Source: Haloferax sp. Atlit-12N (GTDB lineage: Archaea; Halobacteriota; Halobacteria; Halobacteriales; Haloferacaceae). From it: a stretch of DNA of 64,000 nt. Shown here one piece after another: positions 54,833 to 57,619 of this stretch. The stretch's first letter is position 1, and each line of letters starts with the position of its first letter. The DNA lies in assembly GCF_003383095.1 (NCBI RefSeq), contig NZ_PSYW01000001.1:930001-994000 (forward strand), in the 5' to 3' direction. The notes under the pieces are model-generated. The model saw nothing but the letters and a program-made list of their open reading frames with translations, was not told the origin of the DNA and did not search any database. Position numbers and translations under genes: made by a program.

Positions 54833-54884
54833 TTTAGGATGGCCTAAAAACCGAAGACACTATGTTGTTTTAGGTTGGCCTAAA
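54833..54884. promoter_or_regulatory. Two palindromic iron boxes (DtxR-type operator)
   Basis: TTTAGGATGGCCTAAA (54833-54848) and TTTAGGTTGGCCTAAA (54869-54884) are centred 36 bases apart. Both fit TTTAGG-N4-CCTAAA. Similar TTAGG-type palindromes are known for haloarchaeal DtxR-family repressors. They precede the operon that encodes a DtxR-type regulator, so autoregulation by metal is likely. The second site probably overlaps the core promoter. Confidence 0.75.
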
Positions 54885-54946
54885 TGGTATGACCAGAGCG
54901 GATTCCGAGGCAACCGCGGCGACGGCACCCTCACAGGGAGACTGAG

Positions 54947-55759
54947 ATGAACACTGAGCGCACCGCGGGCATCAGGGACGCGCTGGACCGCGTCGAACGC
55001 GAGCGCGAACAGGTGCTGGCGAAGCGGCGGGCAGTCGAGCGGTTCGAACGGCGCGTTCGAAAGCTCGCCGCACAGTCGAACCGCCCGCCGGCAGGGACGG
55101 CCCGAGCGACCGCGTGCGGGACCGCGCCAGTCCCGACGACGACGCGACGAGACGCCGGCACTGGCACGGGGCGACGGCAGGTGCGCGAGCTGTTCGCGGA
55201 GACGATACGGCCGCACAGCGTCTCCGACGTGAACGAGTCCGAGCCGCTCGCGGTGACGATTCGCGAGGAGTTCGGCCCGGAAGTCGCGACGGCGCTCTCC
55301 CCGGACGCCGGGAGCCGCTTCACACCGGCGGTCAAGGAGGCGGTCGTGTCGGCGGCGACGGACCGGCAACGAGGCCTCGACGGGATGTGCCGGGCGCTCG
55401 ACGCCGAGGAACGGTCACTCCGAGCGACGCTCGCCGTGCTGGACGAGTGCGAGAACTGGCTGGGGCGGGCGGACGCGACGCCGCTTTCGAAACTGGGGTT
55501 CGACGCTCTCCGGCGGCGTCACGAGACGCTCGCTGACCACCGGGAGGCGTGTGACCGGGTGGTCCACGAGCGACAGCGGCATCTCGGCGGGGCGACTCGC
55601 CACACCGCGTCGGTCGAAATCGACCACCGGTTTCTCGCTGAGTATCTCTACGAGGACCGCGCGACCGACTATCCGGTCTTGACGGCCGCGGCCCGCGTGG
55701 TGGGCGTCTGCGTGGATTGTCAGCGGACTGTTCGCGACCACCTCGTCCGCCGCGTATGA
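54947..55759 (+). CDS. Coiled-coil haloarchaeal protein in the DtxR operon (DUF7260-like)
   Basis: A 270-residue mostly helical protein. The N-terminal ~45 residues (AGIRDALDRVEREREQVLAKRRAVERFERRVRKLA) and the middle (residues ~140-225) form coiled coils. A Thr/Ala-rich linker separates them, and a VCVDCQ motif lies near the C terminus. It resembles haloarchaeal proteins grouped as DUF7260. The stop overlaps the regulator's ATG, and iron boxes lie upstream, so it is likely metal-regulated. Its function is unknown. Confidence 0.8.
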   Translation: MNTERTAGIRDALDRVEREREQVLAKRRAVERFERRVRKLAAQSNRPPAGTARATACGTAPVPTTTRRDAGTGTGRRQVRELFAETIRPHSVSDVNESEPLAVTIREEFGPEVATALSPDAGSRFTPAVKEAVVSAATDRQRGLDGMCRALDAEERSLRATLAVLDECENWLGRADATPLSKLGFDALRRRHETLADHREACDRVVHERQRHLGGATRHTASVEIDHRFLAEYLYEDRATDYPVLTAAARVVGVCVDCQRTVRDHLVRRV

Positions 55760-56190
55760 TCGGCGCGCCGCAGTACCTCCTCACGCTGTACATCGCCGAG
55801 CGGGAGGACGGCGAGGAGACGCCGATTTCGCCGGGCTACGTCGCCGACGCGCTCGACCGCTCACCGCCCGCGGCGACGGAGCGCCTCCAGAACCTCGACG
55901 CGAAGGGGCTCGTTCGCTACGAGCCCTACGAGGGCGCGACGCTCACTGACGAAGGGCGCGACACGGCCGGAGAACTCTACGACACCTACCGCATTCTCTC
56001 GCGGTTCTGTCGGGACGTGCTCGGCGTCGACGACCACGAGCACGAGGCGATGCAACTGGTCGGAAACGTCAGCCCGACGGTTGCCGAACGGCTCGCGGCG
56101 ACGCTGCTCCGCGGGGGCGACAACCGCGGCGAAGCGACCGAGGCGACCGAATCGGCGTCGCAACTCTCTCCCGAAAGCCCCACGAGTTGA
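55756..56190 (+). CDS. DtxR/MntR-family metal-dependent transcriptional regulator
   Basis: A 144-residue regulator. The winged helix (LLTLYIAEREDGEETPISPGYVADALDRSPPAATERLQNLDAKGLVRYEPYEGATLT) and the metal/dimer domain (DEGRDTAGELYDTYRILSRFCRDVLGVDDHEHEAMQLVGNVSPTVAERL) are both present. There is no C-terminal SH3-like domain. It is expected to repress iron genes through the TTTAGG-N4-CCTAAA boxes when metal is bound. The ATG overlaps the previous stop (ATGA). Confidence 0.92.
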   Translation: MIGAPQYLLTLYIAEREDGEETPISPGYVADALDRSPPAATERLQNLDAKGLVRYEPYEGATLTDEGRDTAGELYDTYRILSRFCRDVLGVDDHEHEAMQLVGNVSPTVAERLAATLLRGGDNRGEATEATESASQLSPESPTS

Positions 56191-56274
56191 ACGCGTCGCA
56201 GTAAATTCGCCCCGGCACTGATGATTGTCAACAAATAGCACGCAAATACCGCCGCGGAACCGCACCCTTTTTGT

Positions 56275-56290
56275 TTTAGGTTTCCCTAAA
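56275..56290. promoter_or_regulatory. Third palindromic iron box, over a core promoter
   Basis: TTTAGGTTTCCCTAAA ends eight bases before the ATG at 56299 and overlaps the T-rich stretch where a TATA box for a leaderless transcript would lie. Binding there should block transcription of the small gene downstream. Confidence 0.72.
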
Positions 56291-56298
56291 CCCTCGTA

Positions 56299-56466
56299 AT
56301 GGCCGCTGGTACGCAGTCGAACGCTGAATCCGCGTCGGAACCGGACCGACCCAATTCCCCCGAGATATCCGTCTGCAAGGGCGGTCCGGGGAAATCGGTG
56401 TTCATGGAGTCGGGCAACAGCGACGGCTGGATTTCGAGCGACGTGACCGTCGACGTGACGCAGTAA
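56299..56466 (+). CDS. 55-residue haloarchaeal protein under an iron box
   Basis: A short frame read directly from the sequence. It starts MAAGTQSNAESASEPDRPNS and ends NSDGWISSDVTVDVTQ. The ending resembles small haloarchaeal proteins with a conserved D-x-W-I-x-S-D near the C terminus (DUF7331-like; uncertain). A single Cys (residue 26) lies in VCKGG. No membrane helix. Its promoter overlaps a perfect DtxR-type palindrome, so expression probably rises when iron is scarce. It lies between the regulator gene and the convergent dpsA. Confidence 0.68.
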   Translation: MAAGTQSNAESASEPDRPNSPEISVCKGGPGKSVFMESGNSDGWISSDVTVDVTQ

Positions 56467-56594: not shown

Positions 56595-57125
56595 TTACTG
56601 GACGAGCGTGTCGTCTTCGAGGTAGTGGTCGATGACGTGGGCGTGTTCTTCGATTTCGATGAGTTGCTCGCGGAGCATGTGCGCCGTCGCGTGGTCGCCG
56701 AGACCCGCGGCGAGTTCGATGTGTTCGCGGTAGCTCTCGATGATGTCGCCGTACATCTCGAGGTCGTTCGAGAGCGACGTGCGGATGTCGTAGACGTCCT
56801 CGTCCTCGGGCTCGACGGTCGCCGCCTCGCTCAGCGCCGGCATGCTGGCGTGGGGGACGCCGCCGATGGACTGGAGGCGCTCTGCGATTTCGTCCGCGGC
56901 CTCCTCGACTTCCTCGTAGGCCTCCTGGAGGAACTCGTGGATGCGGAGGTGTTCGGCACCTTCGACGTTCCAGTGGTGCTTGTGGAGCTGGTGGTAGAGG
57001 ACGTAGGCGTCCGCGAGGTCGGTGTTCAGCGCTTCGATTATCTGTTCGGCCTTCTCAGTGTCGAGACGGACCGGGTTGTCGCCGACGCTACCTGCTTCCT
57101 TGAGGACAGACTTCTGCGTGCTCAT
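56595..57125 (-). CDS. dpsA: DNA-protecting ferritin-like protein Dps
   Basis: A 176-residue Dps. The four-helix ferritin bundle contains the inter-subunit ferroxidase residues in YHQLHKHHWNVEGAEHLRIHEFLQEAYEEVEEAADEIAERL. Dps dodecamers oxidise and store iron and protect DNA from peroxide. A TATA-like element lies about 32 bases upstream, and the half palindrome TTTAGGCC (57188-57195) about 65 bases upstream. The location beside the DtxR gene suggests iron-responsive control. Confidence 0.95.
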   Translation of the reverse strand: MSTQKSVLKEAGSVGDNPVRLDTEKAEQIIEALNTDLADAYVLYHQLHKHHWNVEGAEHLRIHEFLQEAYEEVEEAADEIAERLQSIGGVPHASMPALSEAATVEPEDEDVYDIRTSLSNDLEMYGDIIESYREHIELAAGLGDHATAHMLREQLIEIEEHAHVIDHYLEDDTLVQ

Positions 57126-57619
57126 TACAATCAGTAGTTGGGGCTGAGGCCACTTAATACTTATCCGAGAACAAACAATTTTTCGTGTGGCCTAAAACAT
57201 CGTTTGCTAAATTAGCTAGATTGCTTCTAAAACGCTGAATGATGCGTGTGAGAAGGACACACGTCGTGGAGCGACGAATCTACTCGTCGGCGAGAGATAG
57301 CCATTATATACCATATCCGTTATGTATTTTTGAGCGATTGGTGCGACGTCTCGTAAGTGTCGATTTACGCGGATCACTACCGGGTCGTTACTCCGGTCAA
57401 AGACGGGCGGCGCTGGAGCGCGGTCAGAACAGGGTTCGCAGGTAGTCGCCCGGCCGCTGCCGTCGGCTCTACAGACTGGGTGGCGGCGGACTCCGTCAAG
57501 AGAGTTGTTCGACTCACATCTACCGAGCAGAACACTCGTGTTGCGAACGGTCGGGACAGAGGCGATATCGTACAGAATCAGACGATGCGCTGTAGGCTCG
57601 GGTCCGTATGAAGAACGTA
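57126..57619. other. AT-richer intergenic region upstream of dpsA
   Basis: A 494-base region. It holds the dpsA promoter (to ~57200), the half-site GGCCTAAA (57189-57196) and a perfect hairpin CGTGTG-N7-CACACG (57245-57263). A very AT-rich segment follows near 57301-57332 (TTATATACC, TATGTATTTTT). A frame from 57357 to 57611 has no recognisable protein character. No RNA gene could be folded with confidence. Confidence 0.45.

Follow-up and report, generated by a model that had tools for sequence, protein, structure and literature searches.

The window, by which we mean the whole stretch of 64,000 nucleotides analysed here (Haloferax sp. Atlit-12N, contig NZ_PSYW01000001.1, positions 930,001 to 994,000), contains a microprotein gene located between a DtxR-family regulator gene and dpsA. 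The genes and promoter elements of the locus were as follows.

54834-54883, no strand: tandem perfect iron boxes before the DUF7260-idr operon, with copies at 54834-54847 and 54870-54883
54947-55759, plus strand: DUF7260 gene (PF23921, 241 bits), its frame overlapping the idr start
55756-56190, plus strand: DtxR-family regulator gene of the Idr type (compare Idr, HVO_0538), with PF01325 at 34.6 bits and PF02742 at 28.5 bits, both over the cut-off
56257-56275, plus strand: core promoter of the microprotein gene, GAACCGCACCCTTTTTGTT, with a BRE-like region and TATA-like TTTTTGTT
56276-56289, no strand: perfect iron box TTAGGTTTCCCTAA, a 14-mer palindrome at -23 to -10 from the microprotein ATG
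56299-56466, plus strand: 55-aa iron-regulon microprotein gene with an ATG start and a TAA stop, a divergent relative of DUF7331
56595-57125, minus strand: dpsA, encoding a ferritin-like iron-storage protein that passes the cut-off of the DpsA equivalog (NCBIfam NF041388, 284.5 bits against 170), tail-to-tail with the microprotein gene
57182-57195, minus strand: degenerate box TTAGGCCACACGAA, upstream of the TATA-like element of dpsA and about 70 bp ahead of the ATG of that gene

The translated frame (MAAGTQSNAESASEPDRPNSPEISVCKGGPGKSVFMESGNSDGWISSDVTVDVTQ) was acidic, with eight Asp and Glu residues against three Lys and Arg, and possessed one cysteine. No membrane helix was found, the highest Kyte-Doolittle mean over 19 residues being 0.07. 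In its length, its one cysteine, its lack of a membrane helix and its position the gene was as described in an earlier, sequence-only reading of this DNA. We take its counterpart in Haloferax volcanii to be HVO_0537, a tag guessed from the position beside Idr (HVO_0538) and without mention in the literature searched.

Weak similarity to DUF7331 (PF24018, a haloarchaeal family of about 60 aa and of unknown function) extended over nearly the full length of the microprotein, including a VFxxxxNxxxW region, and 24 of 40 microprotein family members matched it at E 0.01 or better. Membership in DUF7331 was nevertheless rejected, since the microprotein scored 15.5 bits against a Pfam gathering cut-off of 27, a single divergent relative reaching 27.4. 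Unlike the microprotein gene, a true DUF7331 member of the same genome (86-87 bits) lies elsewhere in the genome and lacks a box. By these profile scores the microprotein is a divergent relative of DUF7331 that falls below the family cut-off. None of the 40 members matched an NCBIfam model, and the microprotein profile had no match among solved structures.

Comparison between Haloferax species yielded pS of up to 0.23 and pN of 0.03 for the frame, while in codons 26-50 of 57 orthologs pN was 0.20 against a pS of 0.62. Judged by these values, the frame is under purifying selection. The single cysteine was kept in the Haloferax-like group and exchanged for His, Gln, Arg or other residues in divergent relatives, and a conserved cysteine acting as a universal metal ligand was therefore rejected. 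An AlphaFold2 model was of low confidence (mean pLDDT 61, pTM 0.33), with a beta-hairpin at residues 23-37 and a disordered N-terminus. Such a weak, partly disordered model would be consistent with a peptide whose folding depends on a partner, but is not evidence for such a peptide.

The distance from the iron box to the microprotein ATG is nine bases when the 14-mer TTAGGTTTCCCTAA is counted and eight bases when the box is taken as the 17-mer TTTTAGGTTTCCCTAAA (56274-56290), so that the eight bases given in the sequence-only reading hold for the longer form. If the mRNA is leaderless from 56299, the TATA-like element TTTTTGTT would occupy 56268-56275. The 14-mer abuts this element and the 17-mer overlaps its last bases. 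The box is thus located between TATA and start, and does not cover the expected TATA position in the way the sequence-only reading had claimed. Since the spacing of the box is fixed, these positions suggest a leaderless mRNA, with the box filling the space between the putative TATA and the putative start.

The microprotein promoters were of two types. The single-box type (61 loci) had the consensus cgaacCgca.cctTTTTatTTTAGG, or, with the box included, cgaacCgca.cctTTTTatTTTAGGt.tgCCTAAA. In the double form (14 loci) the BRE region was overlapped by an added degenerate box, TTAGGccgACCAAAA, located upstream at a distance of about 26 bp. In divergent lineages (among them L157, L162, L163, L169, L190 and L193) the perfect box was preceded at about 26 bp by a degenerate one, TTAGGN4CCAAA, over the BRE region, and a few genomes carried just this degenerate box without a perfect one.

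The window had three perfect boxes, where base composition would predict 0.02 and shuffles allowing one mismatch 0.11. The genome contained 23 perfect boxes, and a reversed-pattern control gave none. Many were located 18-24 nt ahead of a gene start, the genes encoding periplasmic binding proteins of the iron type and an IucA/IucC siderophore synthetase. Further boxes preceded an aminotransferase gene by 67 nt, a gene for a NifU-like protein by 57 nt and a flavoprotein gene by 88-124 nt. Because boxes within this one genome precede genes for iron uptake and siderophores, we regard the palindrome as an iron operator. The microprotein promoter contains the TTAGGN4CCTAA palindrome of the haloarchaeal iron regulon, which is common to iron-uptake genes. 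The fusion of operator and core promoter that the sequence-only reading had singled out is present, but it is not specific to the microprotein gene: such fusion to a leaderless core promoter is a common trait of the regulon, and uniqueness of this layout was rejected. A perfect iron box was also seen 86 nt before the gene for a DUF7551/DUF7552 protein (L183:2579-3633), a candidate member of the iron regulon. At the microprotein box we infer repressor binding, the identity of the repressor and induction in low iron.

Upstream, the DUF7260 gene is likely the first main gene of the DUF7260-idr operon. The two perfect boxes there are 36 bp apart. After them comes an 18-codon mini-ORF at 54889-54945 (MTRADSEATAATAPSQGD), with its ATG 19 nt from where the second box begins and its end immediately in front of the operon. 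Tandem boxes with this 36-bp spacing were found again in L184, L185 and genome G380.

Relatives of the microprotein were detected by profile search in 365 of 391 haloarchaeal genomes and in 83 of 86 genera, counts of genomes that are not independent events. All 27 distinct close orthologs had a perfect box at -22 or -23. Eighty loci were fetched and 78 contained a member, with a perfect box proximal to the start in 75 (exactly at -23 in 57) and a one-mismatch box at -48 in the remaining three. Gene starts were set by rule, which explains some of the box positions, such as -17 or -29. Conservation of the frame together with its box had been set beforehand as a test of the sequence-only reading, and both the close orthologs and the fetched loci bore it out. 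A second sample comprised 30 genomes chosen for genus diversity and blind to their loci; it was drawn from the same 391 and is not an independent collection. In this sample a box accompanied each of the 25 true members, perfect and proximal in 19 and with one mismatch in six; three low-scoring DUF7331-like hits had none. A chance ORF or a chance box was rejected on the grounds of purifying selection and class-wide co-conservation of frame and box. The microprotein gene is a real gene of the haloarchaeal iron regulon and, from its box and conserved frame, is almost certainly iron-repressed and translated.

The special feature of the microprotein gene is its dpsA partner and not its operator layout. 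Its most constant neighbour was dpsA, found in the flanks of 81 out of 104 loci (75 tail-to-tail, 5 on the same strand and 1 head-to-head), with linkage seen in 10 of 11 families. In genus g17 the main microprotein copy was away from dpsA. An Amphi-Trp-like gene, encoding a protein of about 100 aa that scored 25.5 bits against a cut-off of 27, was in the flanks of 37 of the 78 loci. With few exceptions it followed the microprotein gene on the same strand at a distance of 0-115 bp (for example L097, L099 and L128). It probably forms one operon with the microprotein gene in many genera, and was absent from the Haloferax locus of the window.

The two genes also occurred together. Among the 391 genomes 363 had both, 18 had neither, 2 had only the microprotein and 8 had only dpsA (Fisher p 6e-23, uncorrected for relatedness). 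For 6 of the 26 genomes lacking the microprotein, the absence was inferred first and then confirmed by search. Six of the 8 genomes with dpsA alone belonged to one genus with a divergent DpsA (50-60% identity). Seven genera (g1, g12, g31, g33, g56, g63 and g66) contained some species with both genes and some with neither, which points to repeated joint loss. Since the genes are usually adjacent, a joint loss may be a single deletion. Block deletion can explain part of the pattern, as four Haloferax species (G028, G029, G030 and G035) lacked the microprotein, dpsA and a close idr, while keeping 6-10 iron boxes. Genomes without the pair mostly kept iron boxes above the control count, and loss of the pair is therefore not a mere consequence of losing the regulon. 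The link to Dps, a guess in the sequence-only reading, has been strengthened by this class-wide adjacency and co-occurrence. Expression control of the microprotein and its coupling to dpsA are well supported, and a functional coupling to DpsA is probable.

The degenerate box upstream of dpsA was kept in many genera. A score of at least 8/10 was reached in 67% of the 79 loci and by 5% of shuffled sequences. A box so placed would be better suited to activating than to repressing dpsA. According to a review (PMC3600143), DpsA decreases under iron deficiency in Halobacterium salinarum. Judging from its box, the microprotein should rise in low iron, opposite to DpsA. The text of a haloarchaeal iron-starvation proteome study mentions neither DpsA nor a small protein.

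These observations can be arranged into a mechanism. With iron present, a metal-loaded DtxR-family repressor would sit on the palindrome between TATA and the leaderless start and block transcription; in iron starvation it would be released and the microprotein transcribed. The dpsA gene would be wired the opposite way, its product being made when iron is plentiful. In low iron the microprotein would then act on existing DpsA, most likely through binding to the shell, which would promote the release of iron; alternatively, it may inactivate or target DpsA and so end the sequestration of scarce iron. Action on pre-existing DpsA fits, because the microprotein would be made once DpsA is no longer made. 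Whether the iron-repressed microprotein is a dedicated partner that acts on the DpsA store in iron starvation is, in our estimate, an even call. Direct action on the store, with contact and iron release read from the gene arrangement and its control, is plausible and slightly more open to doubt. We suggest only tentatively a class-wide, non-ferredoxin Dps partner, made in low iron only, that would open, empty or dismantle DpsA, with the reciprocal wiring achieved through versions of the same operator.

Other explanations would give dpsA a lesser part. The microprotein may be an iron-sparing factor with a role elsewhere in the cell, where it would repress or inhibit enzymes that use iron, or the mRNAs of these enzymes, dpsA being a mere neighbour in an iron locus. 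A small protein under a regulon box brings to mind FbpA, FbpB and FbpC of Bacillus, which are controlled by Fur (PMC7430163), and in some genomes the microprotein gene is away from dpsA. However, it is acidic and not basic, and the class-wide pairing and the joint loss with dpsA would be left unexplained; we consider this role unlikely. The microprotein could also be a modulator of the DtxR-family regulator Idr, for instance a feedback peptide that tunes the repressor, as the window has idr immediately upstream of the microprotein gene and the DUF7260-idr operon itself has tandem boxes. Yet idr was in the flanks in 32 of the 78 loci alone, and for the majority of divergent members it is not close by, while microprotein, box and dpsA remain together. 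The action on the regulator raised in the sequence-only reading thus found no support, and we regard it as very improbable.

The convergent arrangement might matter in itself. Transcription of the microprotein gene in low iron could extend into dpsA and lower DpsA through antisense RNA or collision, the peptide being less important. The genes are tail-to-tail in 75 of the 81 linked loci, with short gaps; out of 47 gaps, only 15 had a run of at least four T on the strand of the microprotein gene, and 31 had one on the dpsA strand. Strong purifying selection on the peptide speaks against this, as do the Amphi-Trp-like gene that intervenes in many loci, the five loci linked on the same strand and the one genus in which the genes are unlinked. 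We find an antisense effect of this kind rather improbable, and a microprotein that acts on the DpsA store remains our preferred reading.

To our knowledge, the exit of iron from Dps-type stores is poorly understood, and no protein partner dedicated to a Dps is known to us. With a class-wide small gene under an iron operator and coupled to dpsA, the question of Dps iron release becomes testable in Haloferax volcanii, which is genetically tractable. If the proposal is true, it would provide a release factor for a Dps-type ferritin and a function for a protein group known to public libraries at best as a weak DUF match.

The control of the microprotein gene resembles the haloarchaeal DtxR-family iron regulon (Idr, SirR, TroR), with an adjoining regulator of this family, a palindromic operator and iron-uptake targets (PMC11349517); three DtxR proteins have been named in Haloferax volcanii (PMC11349517). 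The literature searched did not name the microprotein as a regulon target, though it may already figure in published regulon tables. Zinc-finger microproteins of the C(P)XCG kind have two such motifs (PMC11241148), whereas the microprotein has one cysteine and its relatives have at most CxxC. The Fbp proteins of Bacillus subtilis (FbpA, FbpB and FbpC) are likewise very small and belong to an iron-starvation regulon (PMC7430163). However, they are basic and have been suggested to be RNA chaperones working with an sRNA, while the microprotein, with 8 acidic against 3 basic residues, falls outside this group and is linked to dpsA.

Bfd, the bacterioferritin-associated ferredoxin, is similarly a small protein tied to an iron store, and it releases iron from bacterioferritin (PMC7760384). 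It is a [2Fe-2S] ferredoxin acting on heme-containing Bfr, whereas the microprotein has a single cysteine, not kept in all members, and a Dps as its neighbour. The microprotein did not match the BFD family in Pfam and does not have the cysteines for a [2Fe-2S] cluster. Because the ferredoxin cysteines are lacking, any iron release driven by the microprotein would need another principle than that of Bfd. Bfd is still the closest working analogy, and the microprotein would serve the same end, the release of stored iron in shortage.
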